A program made the translations under genes and the position numbers. A DNA stretch of 64,000 nt from Desulfobacteraceae bacterium (GTDB lineage: Bacteria; Desulfobacterota; Desulfobacteria; Desulfobacterales; SURF-7). Under the pieces are notes generated by a model, which worked only from the letters and a program-made list of their open reading frames with translations, made no database searches and was not told the origin of the DNA. The DNA is taken from assembly GCA_003599865.1 (NCBI GenBank), contig QZKS01000035.1:1-64000 (forward strand). The letters run 5' to 3'. Position 1 is the stretch's first letter. Every line of letters begins with the position of its first letter. Of the stretch, positions 3-10,232 are shown piece after piece.

Positions 3-185
3 TTATGACCCCGGACCTGCGCAGTTCATTCCGAGGCAGGAGCCGAGAGATCCGAATGCGCTGCCGCCAAAGGATAGCTTGCATCCTGCGGCCAGAACCT
101 CTTCCGCAGCCAGTTCGATGATGCGAAGCTCCGGCTTTTCATATGTTTTTTTTCGACATCCCTGATTCGGTTCGTTCTCATTCAT
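3..185 (-). CDS. RiPP precursor peptide, Cys/Gly/Ser-rich core
   Basis: Predicted substrate of the radical SAM enzyme encoded just upstream. About 60 residues: a charged leader containing YEKPELRIIELAAEEVLAAG, then a 26-residue tail rich in Gly and Ser with Cys at tail positions 1, 16 and 21. The ATG at 185 is preferred over the in-frame GTG at 191, because an AGGAG lies 7 nt before the ATG but only 1 nt before the GTG. The ATG overlaps the upstream TGA as ATGA, which implies translational coupling. The leader-core boundary after LAAG is an inference. The precursor role rests on size, composition and position; no known product family was recognised. Confidence 0.72.
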   Translation of the reverse strand: MNENEPNQGCRKKTYEKPELRIIELAAEEVLAAGCKLSFGGSAFGSLGSCLGMNCAGPGS

Positions 186-1297
186 CGCCACTCTCCTTCT
201 GTCGAATCATTGCAAATCGATTCCAATCGATGTTTTCCCATTTCACAGAGATATTCAGATCGCACTTTTTCATTTCCTGTTTCCAGACAAAAAAAGGCAG
301 GACAATACCCGCATAATGCAATTTTTTGACAATTTCTGCAGGATTCAATCCCATTGTGCTGATTATGAATCCCAGGGATCACATTTTCCCATCCATCCTG
401 AAAACCACCCTGCAAAAGATCAAACTCCGGTCTGCCGGTCATCAGGCAAGGATGCAGCTTTGCAAAGGGATCAATATAAAAAGAAGCCTGCCCTGCTCCG
501 CAAACATACAGGGAATCAGGGTAATGAAAATTTCGGGTACGCAGATAATATGACAGCCACCTCCGATACCTCTCCGCATCGGACATTTCGAGCCTTACGG
601 CATCTTCAGGACTGACACGAAAATCAAGCGGCGACGGGTCTCCATTCAGACACGGAAAAAGGGCCGCATCAAACCTGAATTTGACACCAAGCCTGCTCGC
701 GATATTTTCCATTGCTGAGAACTCATGACGATTAATGGACATGAGTATGGTTTTCAGTGCAACCCGTATCCCATGGTCAAGCAAAAGTGTAATCCCTTTC
801 ATACACTTTTCATATGAGCCCTTGACACGGGTAATCCGTTCATAAGTTTCAGGTGTTGCCCCATATATACTGATCTCCACTGCCTGGGGAGGCATATCGG
901 AAAAAATCTCTATCTCTCTCTCCGTTACACAGGTGCCGTTTGAGAAAACCGTTACCAGAAGACCATTTCGGATGGCATGTCTGTATACCTTGTCAAAATC
1001 TTTTCTTAACAAAGGCTCGCCGCCTGTAATCAGAAGATGAAGACACCCTGCCCCGGTAATTTCATCAATGATTTGCAGCCATTTTTCCGTATTGATCTCA
1101 TTCGAAATGTCACCGGCCTTATGATGCCGGTCCCCCAGATAACAATGGACACAGTTCAAGTTGCATTGCCGGGTCAGATCAATCGTTCCGAACAGGGGGA
1201 TCCTTCTCTCCATCACTTTTGCATTGAATCGGACAAAATACTCCCGATCAGATGTTCCGATGGTTTGAAGGCACTCCAAATCAAGCCACCTGCTCAA
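182..1297 (-). CDS. Radical SAM/SPASM peptide maturase
   Basis: Cytoplasmic iron-sulfur enzyme expected to modify the adjacent precursor, perhaps by forming thioether or carbon-carbon crosslinks (the reaction is inferred). The radical SAM CxxxCxxC motif is CNLNCVHC at Cys45, Cys49 and Cys52, followed by the LLITGGEPLLR glycine-rich motif. A Cys-rich SPASM region spans roughly residues 265-360 (CGAG, HPC, CRNCQ, CGYCPAFFC). Length of 371 aa is normal for the family. The annotated start is a TTG at 1297 that overlaps the PqqD-like gene; a TTG at 1279, 6 nt after AGGTGG, is an equally good start just past the PqqD stop. The PqqD-RRM-peptide order is typical of RiPP operons. Confidence 0.88.
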   Translation of the reverse strand: MSRWLDLECLQTIGTSDREYFVRFNAKVMERRIPLFGTIDLTRQCNLNCVHCYLGDRHHKAGDISNEINTEKWLQIIDEITGAGCLHLLITGGEPLLRKDFDKVYRHAIRNGLLVTVFSNGTCVTEREIEIFSDMPPQAVEISIYGATPETYERITRVKGSYEKCMKGITLLLDHGIRVALKTILMSINRHEFSAMENIASRLGVKFRFDAALFPCLNGDPSPLDFRVSPEDAVRLEMSDAERYRRWLSYYLRTRNFHYPDSLYVCGAGQASFYIDPFAKLHPCLMTGRPEFDLLQGGFQDGWENVIPGIHNQHNGIESCRNCQKIALCGYCPAFFCLETGNEKVRSEYLCEMGKHRLESICNDSTEGEWR

Positions 1298-1571
1298 TCA
1301 GATTTTCAGTAAGAAAATCATCGATCAATGCAACAAGATCTTCTTTTGCTTTTTTCTCCTCCACATCAAATTCATGGATAACCAGATTGAGAATCTTCTC
1401 AACAGGAGTCTCTTTTTCAATATGTGCCCAGATAAATTCCGCAACCGGATTCAGAGAAAAAATCCGCTGCATATCCGCCAGTTTCCCGCGAATCGGTACA
1501 AGGATGGTTTCATCGGCTATTTTCCGGGCAACAATCTCATCTTTTTTTCGGTACACCTTATTATTGCTCAT
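1281..1571 (-). CDS. PqqD-like RiPP recognition protein
   Basis: A 96-aa protein of the PqqD family. Such proteins fold as a RiPP recognition element that binds the leader peptide and delivers it to the radical SAM partner. Visible family features are the N-terminal strand region (IVARKIADETILVPIRGK), the N-x-x-A-x-x-I-W segment (LNPVAEFIWAHIE), and a C-terminal helical part of the type ...LVALIDDFLTENLI. It is the first gene of the minus-strand cassette, preceded by GGAG about 10 nt before the ATG. It overlaps or abuts the radical SAM gene, so the two are surely co-translated. It could instead serve other precursors outside the window. Confidence 0.85.
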   Translation of the reverse strand: MSNNKVYRKKDEIVARKIADETILVPIRGKLADMQRIFSLNPVAEFIWAHIEKETPVEKILNLVIHEFDVEEKKAKEDLVALIDDFLTENLIEQVA

Positions 1572-1622
1572 AGCATATAAGCTCCAGGGTAAGCGTATTT
1601 GGAAATGATCTTTTATTCAAAA

Positions 1623-1818
1623 TTCCCCCTTGAGGCGGATCATCACAGACATTCCCCCTTGAGGGGCATCGTCATAGTTATTCCCCCCTTGAGGGGGGAT
1701 TAAGGGGGGTGTAACAAAACCCCGATACTTCAAGATAGATGTTTTTATCGAAAAACCGAAACACCCCCCTGGCCCCCCTCAAGGGGGGAATTTCAATTTC
1801 GATACCCCCTCAAGGAAG
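1623..1818. repeat. Clustered CCCCTTGAGGGG palindromic repeats
   Basis: Five copies of a TTCCCCCTTGAGGGG-type unit. Three are direct (about 1623-1637, 1652-1667 and 1681-1699) and two inverted (about 1762-1791 and 1804-1818). The third copy plus its TTAAGGGGGGTGT tail (1681-1712) is nearly the reverse complement of 1762-1791, so the two could form a stem of about 30 bp with a loop of about 50 nt. The block fills the gap between the C25 protease gene and the RiPP cassette and contains no ORF. It may act as a terminator for the upstream gene or be a dispersed REP-like element. GC content is far above its flanks. Confidence 0.8.
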
Positions 1819-1843
1819 AATTTACGTTATAAACCCACAATAT

Positions 1844-4800
1844 TCAGTGCATCACCCTCAATTTCATCTGCAATGCCGGATCTCCCAATAGATTGTAGAC
1901 ACGGGGCGGTTGTTCACCTTTTATCTTGCTCCCGAAATTCATAAAACTCTTTTGGATGGCCTTGCCCAGAATCGACTCTCTGTTCTGAAAGACTTCTTTG
2001 AAAAATTCCTGATCCAGAAAGGCTGCATGCACATTCATGGAAAATCCGGTGGGTGCCCAGACGGCAACCGCTCCTTCCCCCTCGCTCATCAGCAAGACTT
2101 CACCAAGAGAGTCAAAGCCGGGCAATGCAAAACGACCGGCGACACAAGTCATTGCAGTAACAATCGGCAGCTTATCACCATTTTCAAACAAGGAAACATC
2201 GGCTGCAGTTAACAGGCCTTCATCCGTCAGAGAATTCACCGCGCCATGCCCCAGATAATTGATCAGCAGAACACCGTCTTGTATCCCGGATAACATTCGG
2301 GCCCTTGCATCGTTGATTCCCAGATCCGACAGATAAATTCTGTCTGAGGAATATTCGAACGGCAGATTTGCTGCGACGCTGTCGCTGTCTACTGAAAAAT
2401 CACCGCCGTTATCCGGATTGTCAGCCATCATCATAATCCGGGTGCACCACTCACCTTCCGGTGTGTTCTCATATTGTTCCATTTTCCGGATCACTGCCAT
2501 CAGGTCTTCCAAAGTGATCGCCGGAATTCTACCGATAGCGATTTCCGGTATGCCGTCATTACTTACAACATCGGCAAAGGGAGCATCCGAAGCAAACAGC
2601 CCGTAGGATGTCGGGATCAGGATGGGCGGTATCAGATTGTCTCCATGCCCCTGGTAATCCTTATAGTCATAGGTTCCATCTCCTGCCAGAACAACATACT
2701 GCGGCGGGATGATCCATTCATGATATGCATAGGAAAGAAAATCCCGTATTGCGGTTGGAGCGGCAATACCATGATTGAATTCATCATAAATATCTTCCAG
2801 CATGATCACTTCGGTGGTGAAACCTTTTTGCCTGCGATACTCGGCAAGCGCCCGGGCGCCGTCCTCCAGTTCCGGCACGGTGATGACAAGATAATCAGCT
2901 TTATTTGTCTTGTCTTTTAAATTGGAACGGCTGTCCGCAACAAACGATACCGGTTTTTTCACAGCATCGGCGGTCACTGCAAAATATGTTGATTCAAAGT
3001 GATACGGATGGAAGGAAACGGAAAAATCATCCTCTTCCTGTCGAATGGTTGAGGCATTCATATAAGCCGGTTCACGATTCCCGGTAACATCAAACACCAT
3101 GACCTTTGGATTGGAAAAACCGCTGATGGTGATGGTATCGTTTTCAGACCCGGAAACGGCCAGAGAATTCCCGGATGCGATATAAAACCGGTTATACGTT
3201 AGGTCTATCGCATTCACATAGAAAAAACTATAGGGAGCACCGGTATCCAGGAGTCCTTTGACGGCTATGGTATTGTCCCCCTCATGCAGGATTGCCTGAT
3301 CAAAGGCAAACGCAAAGCGGACGTCATCCATTCCATTCCAGGAACCCTCTCCAATAAAAATTCCATTCATCAGAATTTCCACATGATGATCCGATGCAAT
3401 ACCCTGAAAGTCTGATCCGCCTTTCAGGGTAACTGCGATGCCGGCAGTATTTTCCCCGGAAACCGATGCAACGGCGGGTAACGTTACCGGAAAAATTTTC
3501 GGTTCCTGATCCGGGGCTCCGGAAATGATGACATCCCATATCCAGAAATCCGCTTCCGGATCATGGTACAATCCTGTTACCGGCCATTGATTCTTCTCTG
3601 CATGAACCGTATCGGTGAAATAATGCCCTTGAACAGGAAATTCCGGTCCGACGCCTTGAATGATATCCATATTCAGGCCCCGGCCTTTTTCCAGCCGGTA
3701 GATGTTCTGATCCGTATAGGGGGTATCAATCGCTTTTCCATAAAAATAAATCCCGCTGTTTTTATCCGCCTTCATCCAGGCAACCGGTTTGCCTCCGGAA
3801 TGAAGTGAGAGGTTGCCCTGTTGGATCAATCGTTTCACCTGGTTCACCGGAAGGCCTAATACATCGGCAATCTCCGAGGCGTCCAGATGATAGATTCCGG
3901 TTTCCTGAATACTGATTTTCGCCTCTGCTCCCCGCTGATACTTTCTCAGCCCTTTATATTGATTCCGCAACTTCTTTGCGAGTTTCAACCGTTGTTTTCT
4001 GTTCTCACTGATCTGTCTGGGACGAGGCTTATCATCAATGGTATTGGCCTGGTCAAAATACCCTCCACCGGATGATGCACTCCCGGATGACAGTCGATGC
4101 AGATTTTTCCTTCCGAAAATCCGTGCATAAATCTGTTTCAACAGGTCCAGCTCTTCTCCATCCACCGTAATGGTGAACGGCCCATGGACCCTTGATTTCC
4201 CGCGAGACTCTTTCTCAATCAATTTATAGGTATAGGTCTCACCGGAAACAGCCGTATCATCCGTGTATCGATAGGTTCCTCCCTGCGCATGAACAAGCAA
4301 TCCCGGCAGTATCTGTTGATTCAGTTTTTCAAACTTTCCGGTATCCTCATTTTTTCGATACAGATAAAAACCCAGCGTACCGACTTCTGAAGCGGTTTCC
4401 CATTCCACGACAACCCGGTTGCCTTCTTCATAAGCCTTAAAGGATGACAGGATCGCAAGCGTCGGAACATAGGCAAACACCTCGGTGGAGTCTGTTGAAT
4501 CATTGGGATCTGTATAATTGACATACAGGTAATCGTCCCCGGAAACATTCAGGGTGCCGTCATCTGAAGTTCCGGTGGAATATACAATCGGAATGCCGGA
4601 AGCGTTTTCAAAAATACCGGTATCGATACCGGTTTCGGTCAGAACGATTGTTTCCGTGTCGGTTCCGCTGACCGGCGGCGAGGCGGAACCAGTTACCTGA
4701 ATGATGACCGTTATCGTCTCTGCCACGTCCGGGTCCATATTCCGATCCGGATCAACAACCTGAACATAGGCGTTATCCGATCCGCCAAGGATATCATACC

Positions 4801-7447
4801 CATTGATCGGATTTCCCGATGCATCAGTAAAGGCGATCGAACTCCAGCTGTTCATTCGGAACTCATTATAGGTAATTGTAGCCGGAGCGGAAAGTTGGGA
4901 CGGCAGATCCGGTTGAAAGGAGGTACCATCTATTGCTGCAACAGCTGTCCAGGCTCCGTAAGAAACATCATCCGTCGAATTATCAAAATAGCTTCTCAAA
5001 AAGGCAGAACTGTCTGCCGTCCCAGTTGTATCCGTAAAAATCAACGCCCCATTTCCATCGTAGTAGGCCACATCATAAGCCGTCCCGGGAATCCACCCGT
5101 GTCCTCCCACATAAATGACATCATTTCCAACACCTGTATCAGACGGGTCGCGGTAGTAAAGATTGTCTTCCGTGGAATAATCGCTTGCGTAAGATAAAAG
5201 GTGCGGCACATAATCGACAACCGTCGCTGCTATCGGTGATGCTGCTTGATCACTCGAAATAGATGAGATCGCTTCAATCCGTGTAATCCCGATATCCAGA
5301 GGATCATCCACAACAACCTGATACGATACCGTCATGGTCTCGCCGGGCGGGATGGAAAATCCGTCCGCAGCAATTACCAGGTTCGGCGGTGTGCCGTCAT
5401 CAAGCTGATTTGGATCTCCGGCTACATTGGTATATGTGGTTGTTTGGTCAATCGAAGCGGCAATTTCAATATCATCGAAATAAACGCGTTCATTCCCTGC
5501 CAAAGCAGATGAACTCAGGAATCGAATCCTCGTATTGGGCGCTATATAGGCTGAAATATCCCTTGACCAGGCAATATATCCGGAATCATTGGTCGGCCCC
5601 TGAAACCGATCCAGTTCCGTCCAGCTTGATCCGCCGTTATTTGAAATACTGACGGTCACATGGTCGTTGGCGTTGTCCAAAGCATTACGCCTATACGTAA
5701 AACTCAGTGTTGCTGTATCATATCCGGAAAGATCCACTCCTCTCTGAACCCCTTCACCACCACCGTCATTATCCTGTATGCGTAAGACATAGGACGAAGT
5801 ATCCGCTATAACCTGTTCATCACCGCTGGTTGCCCCATCTGATTCGTTGATTTCAAGCCAGTTTGTGGCCCAGTTGGCAGTACCGTTGTTATTGTTATAG
5901 GATCTGGCATTGAATTCATCACGAAAGGTAGCGGCTGCCTGGCTGGAAACGGTAACAGACGTGGATTCCGGAATGCAGGAAGCCCCGGATGAAATGGTTT
6001 CATCAATGGTTATATTGGTATGAGACACTGCGTCCAGGTTGGTCAGGGTCATATCATATTGAATGGTGTCTCCGGCCCGGACCAATCCGCCGGCACTGGA
6101 AGTTTTCACCACACCTATTGCACTGGTAGTACTGGTGATGGCGGAACTGTTATTGCCGGCAATGTTATCAAAAGACGGACTTGAAACCGAAGCGGTATTG
6201 GATGCATTGGGATAGGCCGCAGACCCCACCTCCACGGTAAGGGTAATCGGGGGAAGATTCATGCCAACCGCAACCGGACCATTGTGTGTCCAGACTACTG
6301 TGGGGAGGTTTGAAATATCCGCCGTCCATCCGCTGCCCGAACTGGAAAGGTAAGTCAGACCGGACGGCAGTGTATCCACAACGGTAACCAAACCCGTTTC
6401 CACATCCGGTCCGTTGTTGGTCACCGTGATGATAAAATCCGCTGTTTGCCCTGCAATGAGCTCTCCGGAATGAATTTTATCTATAGCAAGATCGACAACA
6501 GGCGTGTTGGTCACGGAGATGATTTCCGCACTCAACAGCACCATATCTCCTCCGGAACTATACTGAGAGGTGGCTTCCGTATCACCGGCACTCAGAAAGG
6601 AAGAAATGTCATAGGTATCAATGTCCACGCCATAACGACCGGTTGACGGGCTCAGGGTATTGATGGTCGAATTATATTGATTGTTTTGTGGATTATCGGA
6701 ATCCGATAACACGTTGCCGTTGAAACGGAGCGTCTCGGAAAATGTATTGAGACTTCCGGAATTGCCTTCATCTCCTTCCCAACTGATATGGGTCATCTTT
6801 CCATTGATGGGGCTGACAGGTATCTGGAAATTGTCTGCGGTGAAATTGATTGTGCTTCCGTAATATACTTCAAAACCATCAAAGATATTGATCACCCGGA
6901 AATCCTCGGTTGGATCTTCATATACGACAACCAGTGCCCAACCGGAAACAACGGTAGCAAAGCTGCAATGAGGAGGCGCTGTATTGACGCTCAAACCCGA
7001 TACGGAAAAAGTGGAGTCGCCGCTGCCGACTGAGGCCGATACGATTGCGGTCACATCCTTGAATCCACAGAAATACTCTTCATCCGTTCCTTGGAAATCC
7101 TCTACAAACAACCGATCGGCAACAATGGTCTGCCCTTCAAAAGCGACTGTATCATCCGGTACGGTCCGGGTCGAGCCTAACCTTGTGGAAAAAGAACCCG
7201 CCCAATACAGATATGCCGCCCGTATTCCAGCCTCCGCGGGTATTCCTGAAAGATCAGCGGCAGCGCTATCGGTTACTGCACACGCATTTCCATCATTGGA
7301 CTGGGTCCTGAGCGTCGCGCCTGTCACCACATAATTGATATTTCCGGCATGACTCTCATAGAACGTCACCGGGACTCCGGAATATGCGTTGCTTGTATAC
7401 ATGAATACGAGAAACACTCCGAAGACCATCCGGCAACATCTATTCAT
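1844..7447 (-). CDS. Secreted DUF11-repeat protein with gingipain-type C25 peptidase
   Basis: Large exported protein of 1867 aa. The start chosen is the ATG at 7447 (GAGAGG just upstream), which gives the signal peptide MNRCCRMVFGVFLVFMYTSN; the ORF is open 44 codons further but that stretch lacks a signal. DUF11-like surface repeats lie near residues 314-410 and 441-490, beta-rich regions follow, and an FN3-like segment near 997-1090. The C25 peptidase domain runs from about 1516 to the end, with GHG (His1734) and TCVAG (Cys1768); the 34-residue spacing matches the gingipain His/Cys dyad. It is probably cell-surface or extracellular. No sorting tail of the PEP-CTERM or por type is evident. 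Substrate unknown. Confidence 0.85.
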   Translation of the reverse strand: MNRCCRMVFGVFLVFMYTSNAYSGVPVTFYESHAGNINYVVTGATLRTQSNDGNACAVTDSAAADLSGIPAEAGIRAAYLYWAGSFSTRLGSTRTVPDDTVAFEGQTIVADRLFVEDFQGTDEEYFCGFKDVTAIVSASVGSGDSTFSVSGLSVNTAPPHCSFATVVSGWALVVVYEDPTEDFRVINIFDGFEVYYGSTINFTADNFQIPVSPINGKMTHISWEGDEGNSGSLNTFSETLRFNGNVLSDSDNPQNNQYNSTINTLSPSTGRYGVDIDTYDISSFLSAGDTEATSQYSSGGDMVLLSAEIISVTNTPVVDLAIDKIHSGELIAGQTADFIITVTNNGPDVETGLVTVVDTLPSGLTYLSSSGSGWTADISNLPTVVWTHNGPVAVGMNLPPITLTVEVGSAAYPNASNTASVSSPSFDNIAGNNSSAITSTTSAIGVVKTSSAGGLVRAGDTIQYDMTLTNLDAVSHTNITIDETISSGASCIPESTSVTVSSQAAATFRDEFNARSYNNNNGTANWATNWLEINESDGATSGDEQVIADTSSYVLRIQDNDGGGEGVQRGVDLSGYDTATLSFTYRRNALDNANDHVTVSISNNGGSSWTELDRFQGPTNDSGYIAWSRDISAYIAPNTRIRFLSSSALAGNERVYFDDIEIAASIDQTTTYTNVAGDPNQLDDGTPPNLVIAADGFSIPPGETMTVSYQVVVDDPLDIGITRIEAISSISSDQAASPIAATVVDYVPHLLSYASDYSTEDNLYYRDPSDTGVGNDVIYVGGHGWIPGTAYDVAYYDGNGALIFTDTTGTADSSAFLRSYFDNSTDDVSYGAWTAVAAIDGTSFQPDLPSQLSAPATITYNEFRMNSWSSIAFTDASGNPINGYDILGGSDNAYVQVVDPDRNMDPDVAETITVIIQVTGSASPPVSGTDTETIVLTETGIDTGIFENASGIPIVYSTGTSDDGTLNVSGDDYLYVNYTDPNDSTDSTEVFAYVPTLAILSSFKAYEEGNRVVVEWETASEVGTLGFYLYRKNEDTGKFEKLNQQILPGLLVHAQGGTYRYTDDTAVSGETYTYKLIEKESRGKSRVHGPFTITVDGEELDLLKQIYARIFGRKNLHRLSSGSASSGGGYFDQANTIDDKPRPRQISENRKQRLKLAKKLRNQYKGLRKYQRGAEAKISIQETGIYHLDASEIADVLGLPVNQVKRLIQQGNLSLHSGGKPVAWMKADKNSGIYFYGKAIDTPYTDQNIYRLEKGRGLNMDIIQGVGPEFPVQGHYFTDTVHAEKNQWPVTGLYHDPEADFWIWDVIISGAPDQEPKIFPVTLPAVASVSGENTAGIAVTLKGGSDFQGIASDHHVEILMNGIFIGEGSWNGMDDVRFAFAFDQAILHEGDNTIAVKGLLDTGAPYSFFYVNAIDLTYNRFYIASGNSLAVSGSENDTITISGFSNPKVMVFDVTGNREPAYMNASTIRQEEDDFSVSFHPYHFESTYFAVTADAVKKPVSFVADSRSNLKDKTNKADYLVITVPELEDGARALAEYRRQKGFTTEVIMLEDIYDEFNHGIAAPTAIRDFLSYAYHEWIIPPQYVVLAGDGTYDYKDYQGHGDNLIPPILIPTSYGLFASDAPFADVVSNDGIPEIAIGRIPAITLEDLMAVIRKMEQYENTPEGEWCTRIMMMADNPDNGGDFSVDSDSVAANLPFEYSSDRIYLSDLGINDARARMLSGIQDGVLLINYLGHGAVNSLTDEGLLTAADVSLFENGDKLPIVTAMTCVAGRFALPGFDSLGEVLLMSEGEGAVAVWAPTGFSMNVHAAFLDQEFFKEVFQNRESILGKAIQKSFMNFGSKIKGEQPPRVYNLLGDPALQMKLRVMH

Positions 7448-7553
7448 CGTAACCTCTCTTAAAATGATGACAAATAAAAACTTTGATTTCAAATACTTGA
7501 ATATAATGTACAACGGCATATGTTTTTCTTTGTTTGGTCGTACCACAATATAA

Positions 7554-7591
7554 TGTGTATGTAAAGAGCAAATACACACTATAAAGTGTAT
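7554..7591. promoter_or_regulatory. Overlapping inverted repeats TGTGTAT/ATACACA/GTGTAT
   Basis: In the AT-rich gap between the polysaccharide operon and the C25 protease gene, TGTGTAT (7554-7560) pairs with ATACACA (7572-7578), and ATACAC (7572-7577) pairs with GTGTAT (7586-7591). It lies 107-144 nt upstream of the chosen start of the C25 gene. The same AATACACA/TGTGTAT sequence forms the perfect palindrome at 20369-20398 beyond the other end of the polysaccharide operon. An operator role is an inference; the regulator is unknown. Confidence 0.35.
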
Positions 7592-7671: not shown

Positions 7672-9042
7672 TTAATAGGCATGTATCTTTGCTTTCCTGC
7701 CAAAAACAGTCATCCAGATAATACGGATATCAAACCAGAAATCCCAGTTTTCAAGGTAGTAAATGTCATGCTCAACCCGTTCCTGAATGGAGGTATCCCC
7801 ACGCCAGCCATTCACCTGTGCCCATCCCGTAATACCGGATTTCACAAGATGCCTTACCTTGTAATCCCGGATATGTCTTTTAAACTCTTCAATAAAAAAT
7901 TCCCGTTCCGGCCTTGGTCCGACAACAGACATATTCCCGATGATCACATTCCAGAACTGAGGCAGTTCATCCAGACTCGTCCTGCGGATAAATTCACCTA
8001 TCCTGGTAACCCTGGGATCATTCCTGGTCGTCCATTTTGTATCTGTGACATTTCCATCCTGAACAACCATACTTCGAAATTTGTAGATATAAAATTCAAT
8101 GTTATTGGATCCAACTCGCCTTTGCTTAAAAAGGATGGGGCCGGGAGAGGATATTTTAATCAGGATGGACAGCAGCAAAAGAAGAGGTGAAGTGACGGCC
8201 AGTGCAAAGACAGAGAAAACAATATCAAACGCCCTTTTTACAATACGGTTCCGCAACAGGCTGAGCGGTTCCGTCCGTATGGAAATCAGCGGGATTTCTC
8301 CCAGCTTTTCCAATACAACACGATTCCGGATGATACTGAAAAAATCAGGAACAATTCGGACACGAATGCCTTCGAACTCACATTTCTCGACCATGTTGAT
8401 GATGTTTTTTTCATCACTCAACGGTAATGCGATAATGACCTCGTCAACCAGATGCAAACGGACGGTATCATAAAACCGGGTCAAGTCACCGAGGTAATAA
8501 CCTGACGGGATCGATCCGGTACACTTTGCAGCGATAATTCCATACAGCCTGTATCCCAGTTCCGGAAATGAAATGATCTGTCGCATCACCTTTTCAGCCG
8601 CAATTCCGCCTCCGATGATCAGCACCTTCTTTTGTTTATACCCGCTTTTAATCACATGCCGTAATATCAGTATGATAATCGACCGATACAGAATGGAAAA
8701 CAAAAAAGCAAAAAGCAGCGGGAACAGGATCATCTTATTGCTGTCTTTGAAATTGCCAAAAACAGCGACGCTGACAATAGCGCCTGTCGTCAATACAGAA
8801 TAGCTGGTGAGCTGTCCCTTGATTAAATCCGTAGAACGTGTGTGCGTACTTATACTCAACGTATTGGTATTGATAGAAATAAAAAACCATAAAATACCGA
8901 TAAAAATCATCAGGATTACTGCGTTCAAGGAAATCAGCCCCCACCCGTTGTAAAACAGGTATACAAATAAAAAATTCAGATAAATTGACGCCAGGTCGAG
9001 CAGAAAAAGTATCTTTGAATTATTGTTCTTATTTTTTTTCAT
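7672..9042 (-). CDS. Undecaprenyl-phosphate sugar phosphotransferase (WcaJ/PssY type)
   Basis: Initiating enzyme of polysaccharide assembly: transfers a sugar-1-phosphate (glucose or galactose in characterised relatives) from a UDP-sugar to undecaprenyl phosphate at the inner membrane. 456 aa: several N-terminal membrane segments, a central nucleotide-binding-like region (KKVLIIGGGIAAEKVM), and the C-terminal bacterial sugar-transferase domain from about residue 265, with a hydrophobic hairpin, KFRSMVV, RRTSLDELPQFWNVIIG and VVGPRPER. Last gene of the operon; its ATG overlaps the preceding TGA by one base (TGATG). Which sugar is loaded cannot be told from the sequence. Confidence 0.9.
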   Translation of the reverse strand: MKKNKNNNSKILFLLDLASIYLNFLFVYLFYNGWGLISLNAVILMIFIGILWFFISINTNTLSISTHTRSTDLIKGQLTSYSVLTTGAIVSVAVFGNFKDSNKMILFPLLFAFLFSILYRSIIILILRHVIKSGYKQKKVLIIGGGIAAEKVMRQIISFPELGYRLYGIIAAKCTGSIPSGYYLGDLTRFYDTVRLHLVDEVIIALPLSDEKNIINMVEKCEFEGIRVRIVPDFFSIIRNRVVLEKLGEIPLISIRTEPLSLLRNRIVKRAFDIVFSVFALAVTSPLLLLLSILIKISSPGPILFKQRRVGSNNIEFYIYKFRSMVVQDGNVTDTKWTTRNDPRVTRIGEFIRRTSLDELPQFWNVIIGNMSVVGPRPEREFFIEEFKRHIRDYKVRHLVKSGITGWAQVNGWRGDTSIQERVEHDIYYLENWDFWFDIRIIWMTVFGRKAKIHAY

Positions 9043-10232
9043 CAGGGCAATCTGTTATCAGCAGCGGAAATCCATTCCATGATATGAAAGGCATATTTTT
9101 TTTCTCTGATCAAACAAAGCGCGGCATCTTCCCGGATCATGACCCGCCAGAAAAACCCTGTATATCGTTTTAAATGATCTTTCATACGGACCACATAGTA
9201 CAACAGGTTCATTCCGGAATGAATGGATGAAGGATATTTCTGTGATAAAAACTCCCTGGTGGGAATCATAAGCTTTAAAAACAGAATGCCTTTTGTTATC
9301 CATGAATCTGTTTTCCATATCTGCCAGAAATAGGGAGATAATGAAGGTTCATTCTCATTTTTATGAAATATCTGATCAATGGCCCATTCTCCATATTCTT
9401 CCCGAAATGAAACCGGTTTAAGATTTTCCAGAACATCTTCCGGAACCATTGCTCCCGTCAAGGTTTTTGCAAGAAAGAGAGTAAGGTAAACCCCATTCCG
9501 TATACTGCATTCTTCAGAATAATCGATCACCTCTTTCCAATTGAACCCGGAAGGATAGCGCTTGATGGTTTCACGAATATCACAGAAGGTCCTTAATCCG
9601 GCGAACCGGAATTGATGATGAAAAGAAAGATGCATGCAAAGGTGAACGATAAGATGTTCCGGTGATAAAACCAAAGCATGAACTCCGGCAATGACCACCG
9701 GTCTTGCCATATCCCAGATCCTGTTCATATCCAGATCCAGATACTGCTCCAGATACCAATGAACGTCAACCACCAGCCGTTCATCGGCATTCAGATAGCC
9801 GGCTTTCAGAAGGCACTCCTGCCCCCTTTTTAAATCTTCTTTCCGGAACAAAATATCTACATCTTCCATACTGCGAAGGCCAGGATCGGAATAGACGATG
9901 CCATTTAAATGAGCACCCTTCAGCAGAATAAACGGAGTATTTGATTTCACCAGGCCCTGTAATGCATTCTGTAATTCACACTCCATTTTTACATTTCGGG
10001 CCGCACAGTTTATATAGACTGAATAGAGTTTCTGCATGACCTCTCCAGGGATGTCAACTTGCTCTTTGATTCCCTGTAAATGTTTATAGAGGAATGGCGC
10101 CACAAGATGTTCTTTCGACTGCCGAACGAGAGAGTCCCATTCGGAAATTGTTAAATTCTGTAATTGCCCTGCAGATCGCGGATCACCGGATAAACAGTTT
10201 ATCAAGCGCTTGTCTTGGTGGTTCAGGCTCAT
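9042..10232 (-). CDS. NTP_transf_5 family putative nucleotidyltransferase
   Basis: 396 aa, resembling the uncharacterised nucleotidyltransferase family PF14907. The signature region is FILLKGAHLNGIVYSD followed by LRSMEDVDILF, with acidic residues that would bind metal, then HLCMHLSFHHQF further on. Members are frequently encoded in polysaccharide and exosortase loci and also near RiPP genes; their reaction is not established. Here it sits between a GT4 glycosyltransferase and the initiating transferase, so a role in modifying or controlling polysaccharide synthesis is plausible but unproven. Confidence 0.75.
   Translation of the reverse strand: MSLNHQDKRLINCLSGDPRSAGQLQNLTISEWDSLVRQSKEHLVAPFLYKHLQGIKEQVDIPGEVMQKLYSVYINCAARNVKMECELQNALQGLVKSNTPFILLKGAHLNGIVYSDPGLRSMEDVDILFRKEDLKRGQECLLKAGYLNADERLVVDVHWYLEQYLDLDMNRIWDMARPVVIAGVHALVLSPEHLIVHLCMHLSFHHQFRFAGLRTFCDIRETIKRYPSGFNWKEVIDYSEECSIRNGVYLTLFLAKTLTGAMVPEDVLENLKPVSFREEYGEWAIDQIFHKNENEPSLSPYFWQIWKTDSWITKGILFLKLMIPTREFLSQKYPSSIHSGMNLLYYVVRMKDHLKRYTGFFWRVMIREDAALCLIREKKYAFHIMEWISAADNRLP

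Follow-up and report, generated by a model that had tools for sequence, protein, structure and literature searches.

What do three coupled minus-strand genes at the left edge of a 64,000-nucleotide stretch of DNA (the window, meaning the whole stretch analysed) make together? A sequence-only reading had described them as a cassette of a PqqD protein, a SPASM radical-SAM enzyme and a 60-aa precursor, which is borne out by the PF05402 and PF04055 matches, the ATGA overlap and an AGGAG motif. With a probability of roughly two thirds, we read the locus as a RiPP pathway that shares its tool set with phosphorylated lasso peptides and linear polyphosphorylated peptides (LPPs). On this reading, a radical-SAM enzyme replaces the macrolactam cyclase, the genes sit in an exopolysaccharide locus, and the kinase is predicted to act on the C-terminal serine of the precursor.

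Locus organization

The assembly comprises 5.0 Mb at 97% completeness, and base 1 of the window is base 1 of contig C11. On the minus strand, the genes run from a C25 peptidase (1844-7579) through the PqqD protein (1281-1571), the radical-SAM enzyme (182-1297) and the 60-aa precursor (3-185) to the contig end, with the precursor stop codon two bases from the contig start. The left cut of the cassette is the end of the assembled contig and not merely the edge of the window. Left-hand neighbours had been suspected to be cut off, and rightly so, as the contig ends there and relatives carry a kinase and a signal peptidase on that side. The full cassette exceeds three genes, with the C25 peptidase upstream and, in relatives, the kinase and signal peptidase downstream. 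Its kinase half is easily missed because several draft assemblies break at or just past the precursor gene, as seen at the start of G000:C11 and at the ends of G404:C12 and G425:C149, which fall within or shortly after that gene.

The intergenic region between the C25 and PqqD genes (window 1615-1820) holds a cluster of palindromic CCCCCCTCAAGGGGGGAATT repeats. This repeat is a REP-like dispersed element, present in 38 copies genome-wide at up to two mismatches versus 0 for the reversed control.

The precursor and its family

The precursor MNENEPNQGCRKKTYEKPELRIIELAAEEVLAAGCKLSFGGSAFGSLGSCLGMNCAGPGS (3-185, minus strand; profile match 5.8e-17) is an ORF of 60 aa with its ATG at 185 and its stop at 3-5; the start overlaps the radical-SAM stop through ATGA and is preceded by AGGAG. 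Its leader contains YEKP (132-143), an instance of the [YW]xxP motif bound by lasso- and LPP-type RREs (PMC13381572) that occurs in 49/49 precursors of the family. The three tail cysteines noted previously are found from C35 on, and one more, C10, lies in the leader, giving four in total. C35, the first core cysteine, forms with K36 a conserved Cys-Lys pair (78-83; CK or CR in 46/49 precursors), while C50 (36-38) and C55 (21-23) occupy invariant columns of the precursor alignment. The last residue, S60 (6-8), is the predicted phosphorylation site. Same-length orthologues from two same-genus genomes give pS of 0.29-0.49 against pN of 0.06-0.14, a strong purifying selection that marks the small ORF as a real gene. 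The core is nearly identical within the genus and variable between genera.

Radical-SAM homologues were gathered from two genome sets, 395 from the phylum and 146 from close relatives, their neighbourhoods were retrieved, and the precursor family was assembled by an iterated profile over these neighbourhoods, yielding 49 small ORFs in 42 loci. They share the plan Kx[YW]xxPxL...EEAVLxxCK, followed usually by two further cysteines and then by a C-terminal Gly-Ser or similar, and have one invariant cysteine in common, usually as CK. Among the 48 complete precursors, three cysteines follow the leader in 38, four in eight and two in two. The same 48 end in Ser in 42 cases, in Thr in 3 and in another residue in 3 (Ser/Thr 45/48), compared with a background of terminal Ser in the same loci of 8.8% for large and 9.6% for small ORFs. 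This tail statistic is not circular, since a profile of the leader only led back to almost the entire set of peptides and added no convincing member. As an observation on the side, some of the loci with two radical-SAM enzymes (L053, L054, L056, L057, L060 and L063) have more than one precursor: two or three, in tandem or scattered, whose cores differ.

Conservation of the small ORF beside homologous enzymes, on which the sequence-only reading had staked its proposal, is seen with both the leader and the precursor profiles. In the 146 related genomes, the precursor profile is found in 25, the radical-SAM homologue in 27 and both in 24 (Fisher p about 4e-23, a rough figure, as related genomes are not independent), and a radical-SAM homologue lies near every precursor wherever the flank allows. 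A chance reading frame might be suspected from the position of the ORF at the very end of the contig, but the purifying selection, the co-occurrence in 24 genomes and the 49 family members refute this idea and reduce its probability to a negligible level. The locus thus pairs a small conserved precursor with both a recognition element and a modifying enzyme, as is expected of a RiPP, and the three-gene set is almost certainly a RiPP cassette.

Recognition element

The PqqD-type RiPP recognition element (RRE; 1281-1571, minus strand) matches PF05402 with 51.5 bits against a cut-off of 23.4 and is the sole PF05402 match in this genome. Its best solved profile match is the lasso RRE TbiB1, and 9x90 and 9x8z, the structures of PbaB1 and LppB according to the LPP paper (PMC13381572), are also within the top four. 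As [Y/W]xxP is the motif bound by the RRE in LPP-type systems (PMC13381572), the RRE very probably binds the YEKP leader motif. Four of the aligned RREs come from W-leader loci that have two radical-SAM enzymes, and these show a one-residue insertion after a conserved (G/A)D motif, which is missing from the RREs of Y-leader loci and is a possible specificity marker.

Radical-SAM enzyme

The SPASM radical-SAM peptide maturase (182-1297, minus strand; PF04055, 84.8 bits) has an uncertain start, for which homology prefers the TTG at 1279 over the TTG at 1297. It contains CxxxCxxC and all seven SPASM cysteines, invariant in 23 orthologues (C45, C49, C52, C266, C284, C320, C323, C329, C332 and C351). 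The protein passed no NCBIfam model, so its reaction is not readable from family membership; none of its best partial scores, which belong to heme b synthase, ScmE, mycofactocin and NirJ, lies above 40% of the cut-off, and AlbA, StsB and PqqE are also among the partial matches. Among solved structures, the closest relative by profile is the thioether synthase SkfB, followed by PqqE. Grouping with anaerobic sulfatase maturases had been named beforehand as a finding that would speak against the cassette. No anSME model occurs among the 25 NCBIfam matches listed for the protein and its conserved partner is the precursor, and we reject a sulfatase maturase.

In a maximum-likelihood tree, all but one of the precursor-associated radical-SAM enzymes cluster together (60 rows, support 100/98), and this cluster splits into two main branches. 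The single-enzyme branch, which includes the window, has mostly Y leaders and often a C25 neighbour, whereas the two-enzyme branch has W leaders. A precursor family is hereby supplied for a radical-SAM group whose sampled members pass no curated NCBIfam model.

From its sequence relationships, we consider it fairly probable that the enzyme forms cysteine thioethers in the precursor. It might instead catalyse other chemistry, such as C-C crosslinking, epimerisation, hydroxylation or residue conversion, with the cysteines forming disulfides or binding metal and the kinase step as proposed below. The failure to pass any NCBIfam model and the span of partial matches from heme b synthase to mycofactocin and PqqE would suit this alternative, but every complete precursor has at least two cysteines, mostly three, at aligned positions, and the best solved profile relative is a thioether synthase, so that we hold it to be rather unlikely. 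The pairing of PqqD with a SPASM enzyme and the partial MftC and PqqE matches could also point to a peptide-derived redox cofactor of the PQQ or mycofactocin kind. This is highly improbable, as the scores are far under the equivalog cut-offs (MftC 96.9 vs 265, PqqE 72.5 vs 381) and the core sequence differs between genera. We also know of no role for a kinase or a signal peptidase in those pathways.

Kinase and signal peptidase

No HPr-kinase-like homologue was found in this assembly. The same-genus locus L083 reads C25 peptidase, PqqD, radical SAM, precursor, kinase and signal peptidase, followed by a secreted protein without assigned function, a porin-like protein and Wza- and Wzz-like genes, and a second same-genus locus, L090, likewise has the order precursor, kinase, peptidase. 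The L083 peptidase passes TIGR02228 for archaeal-type signal peptidase I (57.3 vs 51.85), the type that cleaves LPP precursors (PMC13381572). Measured from the precursor, contig C87 of the present genome resumes about 2.4 kb further on, at the L083-equivalent position. This gap of ~2.4 kb therefore most likely contains the missing kinase and peptidase genes, and judging from the two same-genus relatives both are most likely present in this organism. The region absent from this assembly also holds, in L083 (11768-12418) and after the signal peptidase, the gene for a secreted protein without a Pfam match, whose Gly/Ala-rich tail ends in Ser (..GIASPS).

Counted with a clean profile free of radical-SAM/kinase fusions, a kinase homologue occurs in every precursor locus but five (the window, L085, L098, L105 and L027), each of which is truncated by a contig end or sits on a very short contig; most precursor loci also encode an archaeal-type signal peptidase. 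Across the kinases of the relatives, the alignment shows no variation at His and Lys and at least 90% conservation of the Asp pair, which matches the essential His-Lys-Asp-Asp of lasso kinases (PMC9266682). A few kinases have degenerate D/D residues (DER, DEK, EEK). The correlation of a C-terminal Ser with intact kinase residues is not exact, the exceptions being L092 and L051, where the kinase is kept, yet the precursor ends in Ile or Tyr. In L054, L057, L058 and L060 a second radical-SAM domain is fused to an HPr-kinase-like domain in one protein of 662-669 aa, which suggests that kinase and radical SAM act on the same substrate. The C-terminal Ser of the precursor is, in our judgement, the likely target of the kinase.

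These data also bear on the reading of the product as an ordinary sactipeptide- or ranthipeptide-like antimicrobial. In that case the thioethers alone would matter, and the genes for the kinase and nucleotidyltransferase would lie nearby by coincidence, as part of the polysaccharide locus. SkfB as closest solved relative, AlbA and StsB among the partial NCBIfam matches and a Cys-bearing core with its conserved CK are what one would then expect. The kinase, however, is present in essentially all adequately flanked precursor loci and fused to a radical-SAM domain in four, the C-terminal Ser is conserved far over background, and the core is nearly identical within the genus, unlike that of a fast-diversifying bacteriocin, all of which renders a plain antimicrobial improbable and leaves the phosphorylated, radical-SAM-modified RiPP as the preferred reading.

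Peptidase, nucleotidyltransferase and polysaccharide genes

The same-strand neighbour of the PqqD gene encodes a secreted C25 (gingipain/PorU-related) peptidase with DUF11 domains (1844-7579, minus strand; PF01364, 285 bits). C25-like proteins occur in 17 loci, mostly of the single-enzyme relatives, and are absent near W-type precursors. A very large secreted form with DUF11 is encoded just upstream of the RRE in the window, L005, L044, L083, L086, L088, L089, L091 and L094-L096. Gingipain-like cleavage after the conserved CK by this peptidase was considered and set aside, since W-type loci retain CK without C25.

Inside the polysaccharide cluster lies the gene for a PF14907 nucleotidyltransferase (9042-10232, minus strand; 159.8 bits), an LppN/PsmN-type candidate tailoring enzyme and the sole PF14907 match in the genome. 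The family recurs around precursors, although within 6 kb of only 20/36, and LppN itself had no detectable activity (PMC13381572). By analogy, action of the PF14907 protein on the peptide is conceivable, at slightly less than even odds. Further polysaccharide genes of the window encode a sugar transferase, glycosyltransferases, a Wzy-like ligase, a sulfotransferase and a flippase; that the product works with the exopolysaccharide is a more tentative proposal still.

Proposed biosynthesis

The cassette, the leader motif, the cysteine pattern, the C-terminal Ser, the kinase motif and their linkage are read directly from the sequence. The pathway that we derive from them is inference as regards all of its chemistry, the peptidase that removes the leader, the addition of a sugar and the biological role, and could run as follows. 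The PqqD-like RRE would bind the peptide at the YEKP leader motif and hand it to the enzymes. Next, the SPASM radical-SAM enzyme would modify the Cys-bearing core via a 5'-deoxyadenosyl radical, most likely forming at least one cysteine thioether crosslink, and the HPr-kinase-like enzyme would place a phosphate on the C-terminal Ser, in the manner of PadeK and PsmK with lasso precursors. After presumed removal of the leader by the LppS-like archaeal-type signal peptidase, the phosphorylated Ser may be capped with a nucleotide or a sugar by the PF14907 protein. The final product may act within or on the exopolysaccharide that the surrounding genes produce. Taken to its furthest extent, this scheme would define a RiPP class of its own. 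Its [YW]xxP leader and lasso-type RRE would direct radical-SAM thioether formation plus C-terminal Ser phosphorylation, followed by capping, and the product would be a phospho- or glycopeptide with crosslinks, joined to exopolysaccharide or assembled together with it; as a whole, this extension is speculative and rather doubtful.

Comparison with known systems

What links the cassette to LPPs and phosphorylated lasso peptides are features absent from the sequence-only reading, namely the C-terminal Ser and a setting of kinase, signal peptidase and nucleotidyltransferase. The paeninodin precursor is phosphorylated by PadeK at its C-terminal Ser; for pseudomycoidin, PsmN decorates the phosphorylated Ser with hexoses (PMC9266682). 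The likeness extends to the [YW]xxP leader with a discrete RRE, the His-Lys-Asp-Asp kinase acting on a C-terminal Ser and the hexose-adding nucleotidyltransferase, with the C-terminal Ser seen in the window precursor and the His-Lys-Asp-Asp kinase in relatives only. A paeninodin-type lasso peptide is nevertheless rejected, as the B2 transglutaminase-like peptidase (PF13471) has no match in this genome, the genome's matches to the macrolactam cyclase (PF00733) lie on other contigs and none on C11 or C87, and the locus has a radical SAM instead.

SynChlorMet systems combine the HprK-like ScmC, the PqqD-like ScmD and the radical-SAM/SPASM proteins ScmE and ScmF, and the two-enzyme relatives described here have the same kinds of genes. 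Membership is rejected, since all scores are far below the equivalog cut-offs for the window proteins (ScmE 104 vs 400, ScmF 80 vs 400, ScmD 28 vs 100) and for the kinases of relatives against ScmC (33 vs 125 and 15 vs 125). With the sactipeptide and ranthipeptide maturases SkfB, AlbA and CteB, the system shares a SPASM radical-SAM architecture with two auxiliary clusters and a core that bears cysteines; the SPASM domain here has seven Cys ligands. The sequence match to them is partial, however, and here the RRE is a separate protein and a kinase and a signal peptidase are added.

For LPPs, known from Bacillota, an RRE, an HprK-like kinase, an archaeal-type signal peptidase, an NTP transferase and an exporter act in capsular-polysaccharide loci (PMC13381572). 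Shared with them are the discrete lasso-type RRE, the YxxP leader, the HprK-like kinase, the archaeal-type signal peptidase, the PF14907-like NTP transferase and the polysaccharide locus; the RRE and NTP transferase are present in this genome, while the kinase and peptidase are seen only in relatives owing to the assembly gap. In contrast to LPPs, a SPASM radical SAM is central here, the core has cysteines, the phylum is not Bacillota, and the conserved Ser is C-terminal, whereas the phosphorylated Ser of LPPs is core residue 3 (PMC13381572). Of the LPP leader motif YxxPxVLxHQxIxFETxxS (PMC13381572), YxxPxL is present but the signature HQxIxFET is absent from all 24 aligned precursors. LPP membership is rejected on account of the missing HQxIxFET and the radical-SAM homologue at the loci, the LPP peptide being otherwise unmodified and lacking a ring-forming enzyme.

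Literature on radical SAM with HprK, exosortase or Desulfobacterota did not yield this combination; most subscription journals were outside reach, and an earlier description is possible. Within the literature searched, the locus joins two RiPP chemistries found apart, radical-SAM modification and HPrK-type Ser phosphorylation. The LPP authors term the role of the module in capsule and exopolysaccharide loci unknown (PMC13381572); its recurrence here suggests that kinase, nucleotidyltransferase and signal peptidase form a portable tailoring module that appears across phyla and repeatedly in such loci.
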